Below are positions 8,256 to 39,337 of a DNA stretch of 64,000 nt, piece by piece. Source of the DNA: Palleronia pelagia (GTDB lineage Bacteria; Pseudomonadota; Alphaproteobacteria; Rhodobacterales; Rhodobacteraceae); NCBI RefSeq assembly GCF_900110115.1, contig NZ_FOCM01000001.1, positions 434,001 through 498,000 of the forward strand. The letters are read 5' to 3'. The notes beneath the pieces were generated by a model that saw nothing but the letters and a program-made list of their open reading frames with translations, searched no databases and was not told where the DNA came from. The translations under genes were made by a program, and so were the position numbers. Each line of letters opens with the position of its first letter. The first letter of the stretch is position 1.

Positions 8256-10751
8256 ATGATCCGTTTCATTCTGTCCATTTTCGGCGGTTTTTTCACCCTG
8301 GTGACCATGGGTGTGCTCGCCGTCGCGCTGACCATCGGCGCAGTGTTCTGGATGTACGGCGCGGACCTGCCCGACACCGATCAGCTGAGCCAGTACCAGC
8401 CCCCGACGATCAGCCGAATCTACTCCGGCGAGGGGCGGATCATCGACGAATTCGCCGAGGAGCGGCGCCTGTTCACGCCGGCTGGCGACATTCCCGACCT
8501 GGTGAAGCACGCCTTCATCTCGGCCGAGGACAAGAACTTCTACACCCACCAGGGCTATGATCCCCGCGGCATGGTCGCCGCGGCCATCGATGCGGCACGG
8601 GGTCAGGGCGTGCGCGGGGCGTCGACCATCACCCAGCAGGTGATGAAGAACTTCCTTCTGGGCGGCGAACGCAGCGCCGAGCGCAAGGTCAAGGAACTGA
8701 TCCTTGCCAGTCGCATCGAGGACTCGCTGAGCAAGGAGAAGATTCTGGAACTTTACCTGAACGAGATCTTTCTCGGCCAGAACTCTTATGGCGTGACGGC
8801 TGCCGCGCAGAGCTATTTCAACAAGCCCCTGGCCGCGCTGCAGCCGGAAGAGGCCGCCTATCTCGCGGCGCTGCCCAAGGCGCCGTCGACCTATCACCCC
8901 GTCCGCGAGAAAGAGCGCGCGATCTCGCGCCGCAACTTCGTTTTGCGCGAGATGTTCGAGAACGGTTTCTTGGACGAGGACGATTACCGCGCCGCCCGGG
9001 TCGCGCCGTTGCAAACCGTGCAGAGCGGCGATTTCGACAGTTTCCGCTCCGAGATCCCGCCGCGCGACTACTTCACCGACGAGATCCGCCGCCAGCTGAG
9101 CCGCGACTACGGCGAGGGCGAGTTCCTGTCGGGCGGCCTGTCGGTTCGCGCCACCATCGACCGCGAGCTTCAGACCGTGGCCGCCCACAGCCTGCAGCGC
9201 GCGCTGGAGGATTACGACCGTTCCACCGGCCGCTGGCGCGGCACGGGCGAGACGATCGATCCGGCCGAACTGGACAACTGGGAAGAGGCGCTGGCCGGCA
9301 CCGACGTGCCGCGCGACATCGACCTGGACAACCAGTGGTACCCGGCCGTCGTCCTGGACATCGCCGACCAGTCGCTGACCGTCGGCGTCGAGGGCGAGGG
9401 CGAGCAATCCGTCCCGCGCGACGATATCGCCTGGCTGCGCGGCGACTTCTTCGACAATTTCGAACGCGGCGACGTCGTCCATGTGCGCCGCATGACCAAC
9501 GATAGCGACGGCAGCCTGATCCGCTGGAGCCTGCGCCAGGTTCCCGAGGTTCAGGGCGCCTTCATGGCGATGGACGTGGATACGGGCCGCGTGCTGGCGA
9601 TGCAGGGCGGCTTCTCCTACCAGGACTCGGTCTTCAACCGCGCCACCCAGGCCACCCGGCAGCCGGGATCGAGCTTCAAGCCCTTCGTCTTCGCCGCGGC
9701 GCTGGATTCGGGCTTCTCGCCCGCGACGATTGTGGTGGACGCCCCGATCGAGATCAACACGCCGCAGGGCCTGTGGCGGCCCAAGAACTATTCCAACCGG
9801 TTCTACGGCCCCACGCCGCTGCGCACCGGGATCGAGCAGTCGCGCAACCTGATGACCGTGCGCCTTGCGCAGGAAGTCGGGATGGACGTGGTGGCGAGCT
9901 ATGCCGAACGCTTCGGGGTCTACGACCGGATGGGCGGCTACCTGTCGGCATCGCTCGGGTCCGAGGAAACGACGCTCTACAAGATGGTGGCGGCCTACTC
10001 CATGTTCGCCAATGGCGGCGAGCGGGTGGAGCCTACGCTGGTCGACCGGGTGCAGGACCGCTACGGGCGCACCGTCTACCGTCACGACCAGCGCGAGTGC
10101 CTGGATTGCGACACCGCGCAGCTCGAGCCCGGATACGGGCCACGCATCGCGTCCGACCGCGAACGCGTCATGGACGCGATCACCGCCTATCAGCTGACAT
10201 CCATGATGAAGGGCGTGGTCGAGCGCGGCACGGCGCGCGGCCGCGTCAACCTGAACGTGCCCGTCGCGGGCAAGACCGGCACCACCAACGACGCCAAGGA
10301 CGTGTGGTTCGTGGGCTTCACGAGCAACATCGCCGCCGGCTGCTATATCGGCTTCGACCAGCCGCGCAGCCTTGGCAGCGGCGCCTCGGGTGGTGGCATG
10401 TGCGCGCCGGTCTTCGACCGCTTCATGCAGGAAGCCACGGCAAAATACGGTGGTGGTCCGTTCGACGTGCCGCCGGGCGGCCATTTCATCAAGATCGACC
10501 GGTTCACCGGCGCGCGCCTGTCGGACGGGGCCAGCGGCGACAACGTCGTGGCCGAGTATTTCCGCCTGGGCGAAGAGCCTGTCTTCGGCGTGGCCTTCGA
10601 CGGCGGCTTCGCCATGGGCGCGAACCTTCCGCTGTTCGAAGAGGCGGCCGGCGGCGGCACGCAGCGCGTGCGCAATGCCGACGGCTCGACAGCGACAATT
10701 CCGCAGAAGAAGGCCACGTTCGGCACGCTCAGTTCCGGCGGGCTCTACTAG
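8256..10751 (+). CDS. mrcA: Penicillin-binding protein 1A, bifunctional glycosyltransferase/transpeptidase
   Basis: 831-residue class A PBP that polymerises glycan strands and crosslinks peptides in the periplasm. An N-terminal membrane anchor (about residues 8-33) is followed by the GT51 domain with catalytic E91-D92 in SAEDKNFYTHQG, a linker and OB-like insert (about 320-440), and the transpeptidase domain with S472-S-F-K475, S529-R-N531 and K673-T-G675. Length and order fit PonA/MrcA. A 111-base gap without recognisable gene separates it from the amidase. prfB begins 77 bases after its stop; the spacer carries the 12-base palindrome CGGGACGTCCCG at 10753-10764. Confidence 0.95.
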   Translation: MIRFILSIFGGFFTLVTMGVLAVALTIGAVFWMYGADLPDTDQLSQYQPPTISRIYSGEGRIIDEFAEERRLFTPAGDIPDLVKHAFISAEDKNFYTHQGYDPRGMVAAAIDAARGQGVRGASTITQQVMKNFLLGGERSAERKVKELILASRIEDSLSKEKILELYLNEIFLGQNSYGVTAAAQSYFNKPLAALQPEEAAYLAALPKAPSTYHPVREKERAISRRNFVLREMFENGFLDEDDYRAARVAPLQTVQSGDFDSFRSEIPPRDYFTDEIRRQLSRDYGEGEFLSGGLSVRATIDRELQTVAAHSLQRALEDYDRSTGRWRGTGETIDPAELDNWEEALAGTDVPRDIDLDNQWYPAVVLDIADQSLTVGVEGEGEQSVPRDDIAWLRGDFFDNFERGDVVHVRRMTNDSDGSLIRWSLRQVPEVQGAFMAMDVDTGRVLAMQGGFSYQDSVFNRATQATRQPGSSFKPFVFAAALDSGFSPATIVVDAPIEINTPQGLWRPKNYSNRFYGPTPLRTGIEQSRNLMTVRLAQEVGMDVVASYAERFGVYDRMGGYLSASLGSEETTLYKMVAAYSMFANGGERVEPTLVDRVQDRYGRTVYRHDQRECLDCDTAQLEPGYGPRIASDRERVMDAITAYQLTSMMKGVVERGTARGRVNLNVPVAGKTGTTNDAKDVWFVGFTSNIAAGCYIGFDQPRSLGSGASGGGMCAPVFDRFMQEATAKYGGGPFDVPPGGHFIKIDRFTGARLSDGASGDNVVAEYFRLGEEPVFGVAFDGGFAMGANLPLFEEAAGGGTQRVRNADGSTATIPQKKATFGTLSSGGLY

Positions 10752-10827
10752 CCGGGACGTCCCGACGCGGGCCGTTGCGGGCGGGCGGCGGCGTTGCTAT
10801 CTGGTGCGCTGACAGGAAAGGCACCCA

Positions 10828-11955
10828 ATGCGCGCAGAAACCCAGAACACCGTCGACGCCATCGAGAAATCGCTGGACCTGCTGCGCCAGCGTATGGACT
10901 GGGAGACGGCGTCCTACAGGCTTGAGGAATTCAACGCGCGCGTCGAGGATCCGACCCTGTGGGACGATCCCGACAACGCCCAGAAGCTCATGCGCGAGCG
11001 GCAGGCACTGGTCGATGCCATGGACCGCTATAAGGCCATGGCGCAGGAGCTTTCGGACAATATCGAGCTGATCGAACTGGGCGAGATGGAAGACGATGCC
11101 GAGGTCGTGGCCGACGCCGAGAAGGCCCTGGCCCGCCTGAAGGACCGCGCCGCCGCCGCCGAGATCGAGGCGTTGCTGAACGGCGAGGCCGACGCCAACG
11201 ATACCTTCCTAGAAATCAACGCGGGCGCGGGCGGGACCGAGTCCTGCGACTGGGCCTCGATGCTTGCGCGGATGTATGTCCGCTGGGCCGAGAAGAAGGG
11301 CTACAAGGTCGAGCTTCAGTCCGAATCCTCCGGAGACGAGGCGGGGATCAAGTCGGCCTCCTACAAGATCAGCGGCCACAACGCCTATGGCTGGCTCAAG
11401 TCCGAATCCGGCGTGCACCGTCTGGTGCGGATTTCGCCCTACGACAGCGCCGCGCGCCGCCACACCTCGTTCAGCTCGGTGTGGGTCTACCCGGTGGTCG
11501 ACGACAATATCGAAATCGAGGTCAATCCGGCCGATATCCGGGTCGATACCTATCGCTCCTCGGGCGCGGGCGGCCAGCACGTGAACACCACCGACTCGGC
11601 CGTCCGGATCACCCACGAGCCCACGGGCATCGTCGTGACCAGTTCCGAGAAGTCGCAGCACCAGAACCGCGACATCGCCATGAAGGCCCTGAAATCGCGG
11701 CTCTACCAGATGGAGCTCGACCGGCGGACCGCCGATATCAACGCCGCGCACGAGGCCAAGGGCGATGCGGGCTGGGGCAACCAGATCCGATCCTACGTCC
11801 TGCAGCCCTACCAGATGGTGAAGGACTTGCGCACCAGCGTGGAAACTTCGGATACGCAGGGTGTGCTGAACGGCGATCTCGACCGGTTCATGGCGGCGAC
11901 GCTGGCGCAAGACGTGTCCGGCAAGTCCCGCGCCGAGGCCAGCGCCGAGGACTGA
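10828..11955 (+). CDS. prfB: Peptide chain release factor 2
   Basis: 375-residue class I release factor recognising UAA and UGA. The peptidyl-tRNA hydrolysis motif GGQ is at residues 248-250, within [20 protein letters not shown]. The anticodon-like tripeptide reads SPY (203-205) where E. coli RF2 has SPF. The frame is continuous from ATG 10828, with no early in-frame TGA, so there is no programmed +1 frameshift of the E. coli type. Its stop is 4 bases from the stop of the convergent fused transporter/synthase-like gene. The short upstream spacer suggests possible cotranscription with mrcA. Confidence 0.96.
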
Positions 11956-25090: not shown

Positions 25091-25183
25091 AATTCTTCCC
25101 GCGATTCTATACACCGTTGCCCAAACGGGGTTGCTGTGGCAGGCCTTGAACAAGGATCCAAACCAACGGGACGCTCGAGGCTC

Positions 25184-25837
25184 ATGGCAGATTACACCCA
25201 GCGCAGGCGCATGATGGTCGACACCCAAGTCCGTCCCTCGGACGTGACCGAATTTCCCATCATCGACGCCATGTTGAATGTTCCGCGCGAATTGTTCGTC
25301 CCGCAGGCGCTGCGCGAAGCCGCGTATTCGGGCGAACACCTCCCGCTGGGGCCGGGCCGGGTCATCATGGACCCGCGCATCCTGGCCAAGCTGCTGGATG
25401 CGCTCGATATCACGCCGAAGGATCTCGTGCTCGATCTGGGAACGGGCATGGGCTATTCGGCCGCGATCCTCGCACGGCTGTCCCAGGCCGTCGTCGCGGT
25501 CGAGTCCGAGCCGGCCCACGTGGCCGAGGCACAGGCCGCCCTGGTCGAGGTCGGCATCGACAATGCCACCGTGAACGAAGGTGCGCTGGCCGATGGCGCC
25601 CCGGAATACGCCCCGTTCGACGTGATCGTCATCCAAGGGGGTGTCGAAGAGGTCCCCGACGCGATCACCGATCAGCTGGCCGAAGGCGGTCGGATCGGTT
25701 GCATCTTCATGGAAGGGGCCAATGGCACCTGCCGCGTCGGTCACAAGATCGATGGACGCCTGAACTGGCGATACGCCTTCAATGGCACCGCACCCGTTTT
25801 GCCGGGCTTTGCCGCGAAACGGAGCTTTGCGCTATGA
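25184..25837 (+). CDS. Protein-L-isoaspartate O-methyltransferase family
   Basis: 217-residue SAM-dependent methyltransferase of the PCMT family. The SAM-binding motif I is LVLDLGTGMGYSAAIL (about 81-96), with the acidic end of strand 2 at VAVESEPAH and the PFDVIVIQGGVEEVP segment. Canonical PCMT repairs isoaspartate in damaged proteins; this alphaproteobacterial form is commonly placed next to tolC, and its real substrate is less certain. The Met at 25184 starts the conserved MADYTQRRRMMVDTQVRP segment, so the upstream reading is dropped. The stop overlaps the tolC start as ATGA. Confidence 0.87.
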   Translation: MADYTQRRRMMVDTQVRPSDVTEFPIIDAMLNVPRELFVPQALREAAYSGEHLPLGPGRVIMDPRILAKLLDALDITPKDLVLDLGTGMGYSAAILARLSQAVVAVESEPAHVAEAQAALVEVGIDNATVNEGALADGAPEYAPFDVIVIQGGVEEVPDAITDQLAEGGRIGCIFMEGANGTCRVGHKIDGRLNWRYAFNGTAPVLPGFAAKRSFAL

Positions 25838-27258
25838 TCACGACCAAGATTGTCCGCTCGGCACGGCGGCTAAGCGCCGTCGCGCTCCTGGCTCTGGGCA
25901 CCGCGCTGCCCGTGCAGGCCGAAACGCTTGCCGACGCGCTGGTGTCGGCCTACCGGAATGCGGGGCTCATCGACAAGAATGCCGCCGCCCTGCGCGCCGC
26001 CGACGAGGACGTGGCCCAGGCGCTGGCCGCGCTGCGCCCGATCATCAACTACACGGCGTCGTTGACGCGGACCTGGCAATTCCCGAATGACCGCACGGTC
26101 GTCACGCCGACCGGCCCCCAGCGGATCGAGAACAGCGCGGAGACCTCGGCCACCATCGGAATAAGCGCAGATCTTCTGCTGTGGGACGGTGGAGCCACGC
26201 GCCTGCGCGGCGACGTCGCGCGCGAGCTTGTGCTCGCCACGCGTCAAGGACTGATCAACGCCGAGCAACAGGTGCTGCTGAACGGCGTGCTGGCCTATCT
26301 CGGCGTGCGCGAGGCGATCGCCTTCGTCAATCTGCGCCAGAGCAACGTTCAGCTGATCTCCGAGCAGCTGCGCGCGGCGCAGGACCGTTTCGAAGTGGGC
26401 GAAGTGACGCGCACGGACGTGGCGGTGGCCGAGGCGGCCCTGGCCTCGGCGCGGTCGAACCTCGCCTTGGCGCGGGGCGACCTGGAACAGGCGCGGGCCG
26501 ATTTCGTCCGTTTCGTGGGTCGCCAGCCGGGCCAGTTGCAGGATGTCTCGGCCCCCGCGCCGGCCGCCGGATCGCTGGACGCCGCGCAGCGCGTGGCGCG
26601 GCGCTCGCATCCGCTGATCCGCCAGCAGATGCGCCTGGTCACGGTGGGCGATCTCAACGTCCTTCGGGCTGAAGCCGCCATGAAACCGTCTATCTCGGCC
26701 AATGCGCGGGTCTCGGTCGCGGACGAATTCGAAGAGCAGGCTTCCGTCGGTGTCACCATGACCGGTCCGATCTATCGGGGCGGCCAGCTGTCGTCGCTGT
26801 ATCGCCAAGCGGTGGCAAACCGGGACGAAACCCGCGCCGACCTGCACATCACGACGGACGATGTTCTGCAGAGCGTGGCCCAGGCCTGGGCGCAGCTGTC
26901 CGTGTCGCGCGCCCGGATCCAGGCCAGCCAGCTTGAAGTGCGGGCCGCGACACTGGCTTTCCGGTCGGTCCAGGAAGAGGTTCGCTTCGGCACCCGCACC
27001 ACGCTGGACGTGCTCGACTCCGAGCAGGATCTGCAGGACGCGCGCGCCAACCTGATCTCGAGCCGCATCGCCGAGATCCGGGCCTCCTACCAGCTTCTGT
27101 CCTCCATGGGGCTGCTGACGGTCGAGCATCTGAACCTGCCCGTCGTCACCTATGACCCGTCGGCCTATTACAACGCGGTCAAGACGGCGCCGGTTCGCAA
27201 GGTGTCGCCGCAGGGTGAGAAGCTGGACCTGCTGCTTAAGTCTCTGGGAAAAAATTAA
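25834..27258 (+). CDS. tolC: TolC-family outer membrane efflux protein
   Basis: 474 residues. A signal peptide (about 1-29, ending PVQA) is followed by two repeats of the TolC outer-membrane efflux domain, each rich in Ala, Gln, Leu and Arg helices. It forms the trimeric outer-membrane duct for RND pumps and type I secretion. The start ATG at 25834 overlaps the methyltransferase stop by 4 bases, suggesting coupled translation. No inner-membrane pump is adjacent; an RND pump operon without its own outer-membrane gene lies at 58-63 kb and could use this duct. A 6-bp inverted repeat CAACGC/GCGTTG (27284-27301) follows the gene. Confidence 0.94.
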   Translation: MITTKIVRSARRLSAVALLALGTALPVQAETLADALVSAYRNAGLIDKNAAALRAADEDVAQALAALRPIINYTASLTRTWQFPNDRTVVTPTGPQRIENSAETSATIGISADLLLWDGGATRLRGDVARELVLATRQGLINAEQQVLLNGVLAYLGVREAIAFVNLRQSNVQLISEQLRAAQDRFEVGEVTRTDVAVAEAALASARSNLALARGDLEQARADFVRFVGRQPGQLQDVSAPAPAAGSLDAAQRVARRSHPLIRQQMRLVTVGDLNVLRAEAAMKPSISANARVSVADEFEEQASVGVTMTGPIYRGGQLSSLYRQAVANRDETRADLHITTDDVLQSVAQAWAQLSVSRARIQASQLEVRAATLAFRSVQEEVRFGTRTTLDVLDSEQDLQDARANLISSRIAEIRASYQLLSSMGLLTVEHLNLPVVTYDPSAYYNAVKTAPVRKVSPQGEKLDLLLKSLGKN

Positions 27259-27362: not shown

Positions 27363-28589
27363 ATGTCCGATCCAGCGAAGACCCCGGAAATCGAAGATGT
27401 ATTGGCCTCAATTCGCAGGCTCGTTTCGGTCGACTCGCAACCGGACGGTGACAGCGGTCGACGCAGCCAACGCGCGCCAACCTCGAAGCTTGTCCTGACC
27501 TCTGATCAGCGTGTGGGACCCGTCGCGCACAATACAGAGAAAGCAAGTGCGTCGCAGCCCAAGCCCTACGCCGAGAACGGCAAGGAGCAGCCTGGATCCG
27601 CGCATGACGCGTGGCAGGCCGGGACCGCCAGGAACCCGGGTTCGGACGGTCGGCCTTCTCCGAACGGGTCCGAAATCGTCGCCCCGGTCGTGACGTCAGA
27701 GCGCTTGGCGCGAAAGCCCGCCAATGGTGAGAGCCCGATCTTTCGGTCAGGCACGAACAAGGCCGTTCAGCGTCAGCAGGGCGCGTCGCCGTCCACCTTG
27801 GAAGAGCGCATCGCGCAGTTGGAGAGCGCCGTTTCCTCTGGCGCCGATTTCGAACCCGATGGAAGCGAGGATCAGGCGCAACATGTCCCGACCAGTGTGC
27901 CGAAGCATCGGACACGGGGCGCGCAGGACGGTCCCGATGGCCGTACCACCCTTGAACGGTTGGTTCAGGATGCAACCCGCGAAGCACTGACGGGCTCGTC
28001 CGACATCTCGCAATTCAAGTCACGTCAGCCGGCCACCGCGACGCACGCTTCTTCGGATCGCATGGAGTCCGGCCCGGATTCGGACACGCCGCCGCTCGAA
28101 CTCATCCCCGACAACCGGACCGAGGGTTCGCAGGATGCCGCGCCGCGGGGCGAGGGCACGACGGGGTTCCGCCACCAGCGTATGGCGCCGCGTCTTCACT
28201 TGGGCACGCCCGATACCGGGCGCTTCTCGGTTCCGGTGGACGAATTTCACTTCGGCCCCCCGGAGAAGGAGGATCTGCCAGAAGCGGACGATGCGGAGAC
28301 TGCCGACACAGACGCCGAGGAAGAGGCCCAAGCCTCGACGAGGGAAACCGATGCGCCCGGGATCCGGGAGGATGCAGGGCACGAGCCCGAAGAACCGCAG
28401 CCCAACGCCTTCAACACCGACGAGCTGTCAGAAGACGGCGTCCTGGATGAAGCTGCGCTGCGTGACCTCGTGGCCGAAATCGTGCGCGAGGAATTGCAGG
28501 GCGCATTGGGCGAGCGGATCACCCGCAACGTGCGCAAGCTGGTCCGGCGCGAGATCATGCGCGCCATCACGGTCCGTAATTTCGAGTAA
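27363..28589 (+). CDS. PopZ-like polar organiser (DUF2497-like architecture)
   Basis: 408 residues. The N-terminal helix PEIEDVLASIRRLVSVDS resembles the client-binding helix of PopZ. It is followed by a long low-complexity, probably disordered region (about 25-340) rich in Ser, Pro, Gln, Glu and Asp, increasingly acidic toward its end. The C-terminal about 50 residues form an amphipathic helix pair: LRDLVAEIVREELQGALGER and ITRNVRKLVRREIMRAI. PopZ has the same order: short helix, acidic linker, C-terminal oligomerisation helices. I infer a scaffold at the cell pole that captures chromosome or signalling proteins. The gene follows tolC after 104 bases and converges on cobQ. Confidence 0.7.
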   Translation: MSDPAKTPEIEDVLASIRRLVSVDSQPDGDSGRRSQRAPTSKLVLTSDQRVGPVAHNTEKASASQPKPYAENGKEQPGSAHDAWQAGTARNPGSDGRPSPNGSEIVAPVVTSERLARKPANGESPIFRSGTNKAVQRQQGASPSTLEERIAQLESAVSSGADFEPDGSEDQAQHVPTSVPKHRTRGAQDGPDGRTTLERLVQDATREALTGSSDISQFKSRQPATATHASSDRMESGPDSDTPPLELIPDNRTEGSQDAAPRGEGTTGFRHQRMAPRLHLGTPDTGRFSVPVDEFHFGPPEKEDLPEADDAETADTDAEEEAQASTRETDAPGIREDAGHEPEEPQPNAFNTDELSEDGVLDEAALRDLVAEIVREELQGALGERITRNVRKLVRREIMRAITVRNFE

Positions 28590-28595
28590 TCCCGC

Positions 28596-30056
28596 CTAGC
28601 CGACAGGGTCCGCCAGCGACAGCAGGCGGTTGAGATCCATGTGCCGTTCCAGGTGATCCGCCAACGCGTCGAGCGTGGCGTCGACTCCGTCGTCGAAGCC
28701 CACCTCTGACGGCGCAGCACCGAGCCGCTGCAGATACCAGCGCCGGAAGTCGTCCCCGTTGAACAGCCCGTGCAGGTAGCATCCCATGACGCGCCCGTCG
28801 GGCGAGGCCGCGCCCTCGGGCCGGCCGTCCAGCCGCAGCCAGGCCCGCGCGCCGTCCGGCCCTTCGGTATGGCCCAGGTGGATCTCGTAGCCGCTGACCG
28901 GAAGGCCGGTATCGGCGTGGGTGGCGTGCGAGACTGACAGGCGCTTCTCGGGGCGCATCCGCGTGACTACGTCCAGATGACCCAGTCCGTCGACGCCACC
29001 GGGCGGGCCCTCGATGCCGTCGGGATCCTCGATCCGGCGGCCCAGCATCTGGTAACCGCCGCAGATCCCCATCACGTGGCCGCCGCGCCGCAGATGCGCG
29101 GCCAGGTCGATGTCCCAGCCCGCCGCGCGGAAGGCGGCCAGGTCCGCGATGGTCGACTTGGACCCCGGCAACAGCACGAGGTCCGCGTCGCCGGGCAGGG
29201 GCTGGCCCGGCGCGATCATCCTTAAGGAGACGCCCGGTTCGGCCGCCAGCGGGTCCAGGTCGTCGAAATTCGCGATCCGGCCCAGCCGCGGCACGGCGAT
29301 AACCAGCGCGCCCGCGTTGCGGGCCGGACGGTCGAGGTCCAGCACATCCTCGGCCGGTAGGCGCCAGGCGTCGTCGAACCAGGGGATGACACCAAGGCCG
29401 GCCCAGCCGGTGCGCGCGGCGATCATCTCGTACCCGTCGTCGAACAGCCGCTTGTCGCCCCGGAACTTGTTGATGGCGAAGCCGCGGATGCGGTCGCGGT
29501 CGGCGGGCGGCAGCACCGCGTGGGTGCCCACGCATTGCGCGATGACGCCGCCCCGGTCGATATCGCCCACTAGAACCACGGGCACGTTCGCGGCCTCGGC
29601 GAAACCCATGTTGGCGATGTCGCCCGCGCGCAGGTTCACCTCGGCCGGGCTGCCCGCGCCCTCGATCAGAACCAGGTCGGACGTGGCGGCCAGGCGGTGG
29701 AAACTCTCCAGCACGCGCGGCATAAGCTCGGCCTTGCGGCTGCCGTATTCGCGCGCGCGCATGGTCCCCACGCGGTGGCCCTGCACGATGACCTGTGCGC
29801 CTTGATCGGACTCGGGCTTCAGCAGGACGGGGTTCATGTCCACGCGCGGTGCAAGGCCCGCCGCGCGGGCCTGGAGCGCTTGCGCGCGCCCGATCTCGCC
29901 GCCATCCTCGGTCACGGCGGCATTGTTCGACATGTTCTGCGGCTTGAAGGGCGCCACGCTCAGGCCCCGAAGCATCATGGCCCGGGCGATGCCCGCGACG
30001 AGCATCGACTTGCCCACGTTCGACCCCGCGCCTTGGATCATGATGGCCTTGGTCAT
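28596..30056 (-). CDS. cobQ: Cobyric acid synthase
   Basis: 486-residue ATP- and glutamine-dependent amidase that amidates four carboxylates of adenosylcobyrinic acid a,c-diamide in aerobic cobalamin synthesis. The N-terminal dethiobiotin-synthase-like ATP domain shows [17 protein letters not shown] (about 7-23). The C-terminal glutaminase-like (GATase) domain has the nucleophile region [12 protein letters not shown] (about 330), with the downstream histidine motif CYLHGLF. Start ATG 30056. No cobalamin riboswitch or other cob gene lies next to it; a short divergent spacer of 58 bases separates it from the membrane hydrolase-like gene. Confidence 0.96.
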
Positions 30057-36191: not shown

Positions 36192-39100
36192 AGCTCGGCC
36201 AGCCGCGCAGCGGCGGTTTCCAGCCGCTGCTTCTCGTCTGTCTTCTCGGCCAGCAGGGCCTTGGTCTCGGCCACGACCTCGTCGGGCGCGCTGTCGAGGA
36301 ACTTGGGGTTCTTCAACCGGCCGTTCAGCCCGCCCAGGTCCTTCTCCAGCTTGCCCAGTGTCTTGGCCAGGCGCGCCTTCTCCGCCTCGACATCCACGAT
36401 GCCGGCCAGGGGCAGGGCAAACGTGCCGCCCTTGACCGCGATGGTCAGGGCACCCTTGGGCAGCTCGGACGCCTCGGTCAGCGTCTCGATCCGCGCGAGG
36501 CGCTGGATGATCTCGGCATTGGCGGCCCAGGCCGCGCGGCCCGCGTCGTCCAGCTCGATCTGCAGGAGCTCAACTTTCAGGCCGGCAGGCACGTTCAGCT
36601 CGCCCCGGACGGACCGGATCGCCTCGATCAGCGCGATGACCCAGCTGATTTCCGCGTCGGCGGCCGGATCGACAAGGTCGCTCGCGCCCTCGGTGGGCCA
36701 CTCGCTGATCGCCAGCATCCGTTCGCCGGCCCACAGTTCCTCGGTGATGAAGGGCATCATCGGGTGCAGCAGCGCCAGGCACCGGTCCAGAACGAAGGCC
36801 AGCGTGGCGCGCGTCTCGGCCACCAGCGCGGCATCGTCGCTGGAGAAAAGCGGCTTCGACAGTTCGAGATACCAGTCGCAGACCACGTTCCACACGAACT
36901 TGTAGATCGCGTCCGCCGCCTCGTTGAACTTGAACCCGGCCAGCGCCGCGTCCACCGCGTCACGCGCGCGGCCCGTCTCGCCCAGGATCCAGGCGTTGAC
37001 CGCGTGCGACGTCTCGGGCCGCGCGCCGCCCTGCATCTCGAGCGCGCCGTTCATCTCGGCGAAGCGGAACGCGTTCCACAGCTTGGTCGAGAAGTTGCGA
37101 TAGCCCTCGATCCGCTTCTCGTCCAACCGGATCGTGCCGGTCATCGTCGCCATGGCGGCGTTGTTGAAGCGGTAAGCGTCGGCGCCGTATTTCTCGACCA
37201 GGTCAAGCGGATCGACGACGTTGCCGATGCTTTTCGACATCTTCTGCCCCTTGGCGTCGCGGACGAGGCCATGGAGGTAGACGGTGTCGAACGGCTTTTG
37301 GTCGACCACCGCGTATTGCATCATCATCATCCGCGCGACCCAGAAGAACAGGATGTCGCTGCCGGTGATCAGCACGCTGGTCGGGAAATACCGCTCCATG
37401 AAGCTCTGGTCGTCGTCGCCCCAGCCCAGCGTCCCGATCGGCCACAGGCCCGAGCTGAACCAGGTGTCCAGCACGTCGGGGTCACGCCAGACCGGGTAGA
37501 CCAGCTGTGTGGGATCCTGCGAGACGGCATAGTCGGCAAGGCTTTTCGCCATCACGTGCAGCGCGTTGTCGCGGCTTTCGACCTCGACCACGCGGGCGTG
37601 GTTCAGCGGCGTGGGCAGATCGTCCAGCAGGTCGCCGAAGCGGGACTTCACCGTGTCGAAATCGGCGGCGCAGTGGGGCTTCAGCTCGCCGTTCGACAGG
37701 CTGTCGGACGATAGGATGCGGCCCAGTTCGACCTCGTCCAGCGCGCCGTCGCCCTCGTCGTCGCGGAACCCGTTCGCGTGCAGGTCGAAGCCGTACCAGA
37801 CGGGGATCCGGTGGCCCCACCACAGCTGGCGCGAGATGCACCACGGCTCGATATTCTCAAGCCAGTGAAAGTAAGTCTTTTCACCGCTTTCCGGGATGAT
37901 CTTGACCTCGCCCGAGCGCACGGCGTCCAGCGCGGGACCGACGATCTTGTCGGTGTCCACGAACCACTGGTCGGTCAGCATGGGCTCGATCACGACCTTC
38001 GAGCGGTCGCCGAAGGGCTGCATGATCGGCTTCGACTCGACCAGCGGGGTCAGCTGGTCCAGCCGCCGCTCGCCGCCTTCTTCCGGGGCCAGCGCCTTCG
38101 CCGGCTCGCCCAGGCGCGGATCGGTGGGCGGCACCATGACGGCCAGCCCTTCCTCGGTGATCTGCTCGACCACCGCGTTGCGCGCTTCGAACCGGTCCAG
38201 CCCGCGCAGGTCGTCGGGCACCAGGTTCACGCTGTCGGCCTCGGCCTCGCCCAGGGTCCGCTCGTCCTTGGCCACGGCCATGGCGATGGCGGCGGCCTCG
38301 GCATAGGGGGCGCCGTCGTCACGCATGGCGCCCTTCATGTCCATGAGGCGATACATGGGAATGCCGCCGCGCCGCGCGACCTCGTAGTCGTTGAAGTCAT
38401 GCGCGCCGGTGATCTTCACCGCGCCCGAGCCGAAATCCGGGTCGGGATACTCGTCGGTGATGATCGGGATCAGGCGGCGATGCTCTTTCGGGCCGACCGG
38501 GATTTCGCAGAGTTTCCCGACGATTGGCGCATACCGCTCATCCGACGGATGAACCGCGACAGCGCCGTCGCCCAGCATGGTCTCGGGCCGGGTCGTGGCG
38601 ATCGAGATGTAATCGCGCTCTTCCTCGAACAGGACGTTCCCATCCTCGTCCTTCTCGACATAGGTATAGGTCGCGCCCCCGGCCAGCGGGTACTTGAAGT
38701 GCCACATGTGGCCCGGCACTTCCTTGTTTTCGACCTCCAGGTCGCTGATCGCGGTCTCGAAATGCGGATCCCAGTTCACCAGCCGCTTGCCGCGATAGAT
38801 GAAGCCCTTCTCGTACATGTCGACGAAGACGCGGATGACGGCATCGTGGAAGTTCGGGCCGTCCTCGGGGCTGGGGTCGCCCGGCGCGCCCTGCATGGTG
38901 AAGGCCTCGCGCGTCCAGTCCATGGAACAGCCCAGCCGCTTGTCCTGTTCGACGATCTTGCCGCCGGACGTGGCCTTCCATTCCCAGACCTTGGCGACGA
39001 AATCCTCGCGGCTCAGGTCCGTGCGCTTGATGCCCTGCTCGGACAGCTGGCGTTCGACCACCAGCTGTGTCGCGATGCCCGCGTGGTCCAGCCCCGGCTG

Positions 39101-39337
39101 CCAAAGCACGTCATCGCCCTTCATCCGGTGCCAGCGCGTCAGAATATCCATCAGCGTGTGGTTGAACCCGTGGCCCGCGTGAAGGAAGCCGGTCACGTTC
39201 GGCGGCGGCAGCAGGATCGAGAAGGCCGACGCGCCCGGTTTCGCCCCGGCGCCCGCCACGAAGCAGCCGGCCTTTTCCCAGGCGTCGTAGAGGGCGGGCT
39301 CGCGCGCGGCGGCGTCGAACGATTTTTCCATGGGCAT
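36188..39337 (-). CDS. valS: Valyl-tRNA synthetase
   Basis: 1049-residue class Ia synthetase that charges tRNA-Val and edits mischarged threonine. The HIGH-type motif is HAGH at 53-56 within [17 protein letters not shown], and KMSKS is at 699-703. The editing (CP1) domain lies between about 200 and 400. The C-terminal coiled-coil tRNA-binding arm is visible in the last 70 residues ([20 protein letters not shown]). ATG 39337 follows AAGGA; a second ATG two codons on (39331) is an alternative. The stop overlaps the hisC start. Confidence 0.97.

Follow-up and report, generated by a model that had tools for sequence, protein, structure and literature searches.

The polar organizing protein Z (PopZ) forms the hub at the cell pole in relatives of the bacteria treated here. 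PopZ of Caulobacter crescentus (PDB 6xry) joins an N-terminal helix, an acidic disordered linker and a C-terminal helical oligomerisation domain. The E12K/R19E/S22P mutant of this protein inactivates its ParA/ParB sites (PMC5182065; this and the papers below are cited for individual passages). A longer linker combined with fewer C-terminal helices yields a weaker, more mobile condensate, PopZ with two C-terminal helices condenses more weakly, and compensation through linker charge has been described; homologues in that work were found by BLAST of the C-terminal region (PMC9512792). PopZ is bound by the zinc ribbon of ZitP, an interaction that depends on W35 and a basic patch (R24, R27); the ZitP ribbon of Rhodobacter sphaeroides carries Gln at position 27 and is largely diffuse with Caulobacter PopZ, and the Q27R substitution makes it polar (PMC5182065). 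In Magnetospirillum and Caulobacter, popZ is found in the context of an efflux-protein gene and valS (PMC6414705). According to the cited passages, many Rhodobacterales lack a conspicuous PopZ orthologue (PMC5182065), and R. sphaeroides, used as a host, contains no PopZ (PMC6414705). popZ was counted in 11 of 13 order representatives, in passages that do not say which two lack it (PMC7987155); should the 11 include a member of the Rhodobacterales, the orthologue would already have been grouped there. Among the open-access titles and passages listed for PopZ in Rhodobacter and its relatives, for R. sphaeroides ZitP and for DUF2497, none reports the protein described below.

The window analysed here is a 64,000-nucleotide stretch of a Palleronia pelagia contig (NZ_FOCM01000001.1, positions 434,001 to 498,000). 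Its forward strand carries an open reading frame (27363..28589, +, ATG start) encoding 408 amino acids, as a sequence-only reading of the same DNA had reported. That reading had also proposed an N-terminal helix, a disordered polar/acidic stretch and two C-terminal helices, a layout that AlphaFold2 (67 aligned sequences) and amino acid composition bear out. Helices were predicted at residues 9-23, 146-159, 197-210, 363-379 and 381-407. The mean pLDDT was 54.9, with 223 of 408 residues below 50 and the middle of the protein mostly disordered, while the terminal helices reached approximately 84-96 per ten-residue block (approximately 86-96 for the C-terminal pair). The N-terminal helix (27387..27431, +), of which residues 9-22 read EIEDVLASIRRLVS, corresponds to the PopZ client-binding helix, as judged from AlphaFold2, conservation and the alignment with 6xry. 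The two-helix C-terminal domain (residues 363-407; 28449..28583, +) corresponds to the oligomerisation domain, the last part of DUF2497, as judged from AlphaFold2, profile-profile comparison and the DUF2497 match. The overall architecture resembles that of Caulobacter PopZ, with two differences in scale: the linker spans 337 residues instead of 78, and two C-terminal helices are predicted instead of three (PMC9512792).

The linker (residues 24-360; 27432..28442, +) contains 61 Asp and Glu, 35 Lys and Arg (net charge -26), 33 Pro and 14% hydrophobic residues. Its earlier description as polar, net acidic and disordered thus holds, although it is less featureless than had been thought, since two short helices are predicted within it and an LVLT block is conserved. 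The latter, LVLTSDQRV in the window protein (27489..27515, +) and LVLTPALRV in its family form, belongs to an LxLT motif present in the linkers of 65 of 67 family members and 21 of 29 canonical PopZ proteins (shuffled means, 3.0 and 0.6); VLELT occurs in the linker of many canonical PopZ. One predicted helix (residues 146-159; 27798..27839, +) is part of a block that recurs in the family, LExxIAxLEAAV...WEPDG (27798-27860), whose strict pattern matched 33/67 family members and 0/29 canonical PopZ. This block may be an extra binding site. The other helix (residues 197-210, LERLVQDATREAL; 27951-27992) resembles the first C-terminal helix (LRDLVAEIVREEL), but as its oligomerisation-like pattern was matched in the window protein alone (1/67), it is set aside as a curiosity. 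Acidic residues make up 18% of the window linker, compared with a mean of 25% in canonical PopZ; linker-charge compensation fits this protein, but not the family, where the mean is 27%.

Family members were retrieved with two peptide patterns, GERITRNVR and EDVL[ST]SIRR, plus motif filters. At least 555 loci were found by the two patterns, from which 80 named loci were taken; 66 of these together with the window make up the 67-member set (among the 14 omitted loci, both ends are likewise recognisable by eye in 12, and the other two run off a contig end). A 25-member profile was built from 25 of 30 loci, four of which failed the motif filter and one of which (L015) had no N-terminal motif. The canonical set comprises 29 of 30 loci.

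Against Pfam, the window protein has DUF2497 (PF10691) as its top family (E = 0.0025, 18.6 bits, residues 363-402), although the match lies below the gathering score of 27 bits. The sequence-only reading had named the lack of an HMM relation to PopZ/DUF2497 as grounds for refutation; this outcome does not refute it. At E ≤ 1, DUF2497 matched all 67 family members including the window protein (best, 1.4e-4), and the next family matched 4 of 67. Among 61 family genomes, tallied by hand, 48 have any DUF2497 match at E ≤ 1, and in 43 of them the best is the present gene. In G016 and G047 the best match is a canonical-type PopZ above the cut-off, in G046 and G014 the present gene comes second, and in G001 the DUF2497 match lies elsewhere. 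Independently, the N-terminal part of the window protein matched NCBIfam PopZ_fam (NF052660) as its top family (E = 7.8e-4), again short of the cut-off (20.7 bits versus 125).

Searches in the opposite direction also reached PopZ. The 25-member family HMM returned a single match at E ≤ 1 against all of the PDB, namely 6xry, Polar organizing protein Z (E = 0.0017). Over 289 genomes of the class and at E ≤ 0.001, the same HMM reached 16 non-family genomes, in most cases via the N-terminal end; 15 of these matches fall in the genome's own PopZ (eight assigned by DUF2497 position and seven by eye, with one of the seven truncated at a contig end), whereas that in G181 does not. Profile-profile comparison of end blocks, chosen around motifs already noticed, with the 29 canonical PopZ gave a probability of 95.4% for the C-terminal and 97.0% for the N-terminal block, and 0 of 300 column shuffles reached either score; when full-length profiles were compared without such selection, the C-terminal end scored 90.3%. 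The C-terminal block aligns with the canonical profile over 42 columns without a gap. One genome, G004, holds an intermediate with a canonical-like N-terminus, a family-type C-terminus and a PopZ_fam match at E = 1.9e-6.

The two ends of the protein have fared differently. In the 6xry alignment, D12, R19 and S22 of the window protein align with E12, R19 and S22 of Caulobacter PopZ in the same numbering. D12 is present in 67/67, R19 in 64/67 and S22 in 58/67 family members (25/25, 25/25 and 21/25 in the 25-member set); because retrieval and filters selected on these motifs, invariance inside them, the acidity of D12 included, is partly by construction, while R19, S22, the linker block and the Pro/Trp columns lie outside the selection. 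By sequence, the client-binding helix is nearly unchanged. The oligomerisation domain, in contrast, has been remodelled. Its Pro/Trp signature, found in 29/29 canonical PopZ for either residue (both were required by the block search that built that set), is absent, and the 67 family members mostly have Gln or Glu and Ala at those columns. The charge pattern has shifted as well, with a mean net charge of the C-terminal block of +1.8 in the family versus -1.1 in the 29 canonical PopZ (first half, -3.2 versus -0.2; second half, +5.0 versus -0.8). This C-terminal change, we propose, is why the Pfam and NCBIfam cut-offs miss the gene, and the region searched in PMC9512792 is the very part that has diverged here. 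The passages of that paper that present the oligomerisation domain as the highly conserved part are thereby qualified, since in this family the helix is conserved and the domain is changed.

The chromosomal position points to the same ancestry. Upstream of the gene lie two conserved neighbours, pcm (25136..25837, +; protein-L-isoaspartate O-methyltransferase family, Pfam PCMT) and tolC (25831..27258, +; outer membrane efflux protein, Pfam OEP). The next gene downstream, cobQ-like (28596..30056, -; Pfam CbiA and GATase_3), is convergent, an arrangement seen within 2 kb in 51/80 loci. In 75 of the 80 named Rhodobacteraceae loci, pcm, tolC and the present gene follow one another on one strand; the five exceptions are L074 and L088, whose contigs begin close to the gene, L098, which lacks a pcm match, and L085 and L114, where pcm was matched and tolC was not. 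Canonical genomes show the order pcm-tolC-PopZ, often followed by valS: in 20 of the 30 best-scoring canonical loci, the distance from the DUF2497 match was at most 1.5 kb for tolC in 18, 4 kb for pcm in all 20 and 1 kb for valS in 15. The sequence-only reading had correctly named tolC, rather than a cell-cycle gene, as the neighbour but had treated it as out of place. As tolC beside popZ is the ordinary context, it counts for PopZ and not against it.

PopZ of Magnetospirillum gryphiswaldense likewise adjoins an outer membrane efflux protein gene, and differs in being of the canonical type and in having valS adjacent too (PMC6414705). In the window, valS is not directly downstream, its profile matches lying about 7.7 kb away (36260..39331, -; G000:C11:470260-473331); with valS within 1 kb in only 15 of the 20 canonical genomes, however, this adjacency is not strict there either. 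Within the family, valS lies within 15 kb of the present gene in 20 of the 51 genomes searched and directly adjoins it in three (G004, G013 and G014), where the gene sits between tolC and valS. In a valS tree of 27 rows, in which only L066 has a plain family-type PopZ and from which the window, L172 and L150 are absent because the valS motif was not matched, the earliest branch within the family is G016, followed by G004 (support 88/84), but the canonical-PopZ genome G047 falls among the derived members (88/78). A transfer, a replacement or a misplacement is possible for G047. At its locus (L169), the canonical PopZ directly follows pcm, with no tolC match, and the genome carries two ZitP-type ribbons.

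Homology at both ends together with the same chromosomal slot argues for orthology to PopZ, which we consider well supported by these comparisons, rather than for analogy. The relation to PopZ raised by the sequence-only reading is thus on firmer ground than it had claimed, although its term "analogue" gives way to orthologue. We regard the gene as quite probably a divergent PopZ orthologue of Rhodobacteraceae that has retained scaffold function. Most likely, it is an overlooked PopZ relative in a family described as mostly lacking an obvious PopZ.

This relative is widespread, though not universal. The family profile matched 52 of 61 genomes at E ≤ 0.01 (with weak matches in G013, where only a short C-terminal open reading frame was seen in the slot, and G019) and 356 of 395 family genomes at E ≤ 0.001. 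The other nine of the 61 comprise G016 and G047 with canonical-type PopZ, G014 and G001 with a divergent protein in the slot, and five in which the gene was not found. In three of these five, G024 (L191), G038 (L192) and G025 (L193), the slot held no PopZ-like open reading frame though pcm-tolC was kept, and losses of the PopZ relative are likely; in G052 no gene was seen in the slot, and in G018 the slot itself was not found. With five of 61 genomes apparently lacking the gene, it would not be universally needed. The slot protein of G014 (L167, approximately 9793-11043) has a linker with many acidic PLILSD/PLILGD-like copies, as if the LxLT block had been multiplied. Among the matched genomes is G044, which encodes a reaction-centre L chain 100% identical to the R. 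sphaeroides chain in the PDB and was on that basis identified as R. sphaeroides, the species that PMC6414705 describes as containing no PopZ. After pcm and tolC, this genome has a 249-codon open frame with MTNVEYGDVLSSIRRLVAEG near its start and GERITRNIRKLVRAEIHRAL near its end, and with no DUF2497 match at E ≤ 1, which may explain why the gene was missed.

How such a protein would work can be outlined from its parts. A popZ descendant would have kept its ancestral place after pcm and tolC as its C-terminal domain diverged. The two-helix domain would self-associate, the long net-negative linker would keep the assembly expanded and mobile, and the assembly would gather at the nucleoid-free cell pole. 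There, the near-unchanged N-terminal helix would recruit ParA/ParB-type clients, so that the chromosome origin and regulators become tethered at the pole. Given what the cited passages of PMC9512792 report on linker length and helix number, a 337-residue linker with two predicted C-terminal helices would favour a fluid assembly. A putative polar scaffold function is the most likely one for the window protein. With regard to a candidate control by GcrA/CcrM or CtrA, in the 120 bp upstream GANTC occurs in 33 of the 67 genes versus 24 expected by shuffling (shuffle maximum, 35) but not in front of the window gene, and none of the 67 genes has a CtrA-type site upstream.

Two other accounts of the gene were weighed. 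That curated cut-offs are missed and that the homologous blocks are short would be expected if an unrelated disordered protein with short amphipathic ends had converged on PopZ; yet PopZ models recognise two regions of the protein separately, reciprocal searches of whole genomes lead to popZ, the chromosomal slot is the same and an intermediate exists, which makes this account highly improbable. Convergence on the PopZ layout without descent was rejected as a candidate on the basis of synteny and reciprocal searches. More credit, though still little, is due to the idea that the gene descends from popZ but no longer encodes a polar scaffold, its product having taken on another role such as that of a diffuse adaptor or of an accessory to the neighbouring TolC exporter. 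It would account for the remodelled oligomerisation domain without its Pro/Trp signature, for the prediction of only two C-terminal helices and for the lineages without the gene, but it sits poorly with a client-binding helix that is nearly unchanged and with the strong conservation of the new C-terminal domain (the 67 sequences share 28 invariant columns in total, a number inflated by motif-based selection), and at L085 and L114 pcm is followed by the gene without any tolC match. We consider this reuse unlikely and retain a divergent orthologue acting as a scaffold as the preferred interpretation.

The known partner of PopZ was compared across 80 hand-picked genomes, 40 of them canonical and 40 drawn from the 61 of the family, using a ribbon model built from nine ribbons of the Rhodobacteraceae family. 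A ZitP ribbon was found in 78 of them, with no match in G087 and G024. As in the PopZ-binding ribbon (PMC5182065), the four cysteines, R24 and W35 are kept in all 31 genomes with a divergent PopZ; unlike it, residue 27 is Gln in 31/31. In the 39 canonical genomes with a ribbon, residue 27 is always basic (Arg in 33, Lys in six; the calls for G126 and G136 were read by eye), and exceptions at R24 are Gln in G091 and G119 and Lys in G082. Arg is also present at position 27 in G016 and G047, which have canonical-type PopZ, and in the intermediate G004, while G014, G001 and G038 have Gln and G013 and G019 have Glu. The residue-27 change is a clade-level pattern that perhaps goes back to one event, and a Fisher test of it, which takes no account of kinship, is not read as a probability. 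Since Gln is also seen in G038, with no gene found in the slot, and in G001, which has a very divergent one, the link between this change and the family-type PopZ is not a strict one.

An altered C-terminal domain paired with an altered ZitP (Arg-27 to Gln) suggests that the PopZ-ZitP contact, if kept, would be family-specific. One tentative explanation is that the module was retained but its contact re-wired, with a re-charged PopZ C-terminal domain (strongly basic in its second helix) facing a ZitP motif changed from GRxVRC to GRDVQC; such a module would be orthogonal to the canonical one while still using the ancestral ParA/ParB-binding helix. It is equally conceivable, and held with no greater assurance, that R27Q has nothing to do with PopZ and instead reflects a new use of ZitP in Rhodobacteraceae, as passages of PMC5182065 suggest, a view compatible with the window gene being a PopZ orthologue. 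The clade-wide nature of the change, with Gln in G038 and G001 too, and the fact that only the second half of the PopZ C-terminal block became more basic while the first became more acidic speak for such a reuse; the retention of R24, the four cysteines and W35 in all 31 genomes and of Arg in G016, G047 and the intermediate G004 speaks against it. With a named candidate, a partner and predicted contact residues, pole organisation in Rhodobacteraceae becomes directly testable. A ZitP-type ribbon at L293 (G013) has Cys at position 24 and Glu at position 27.
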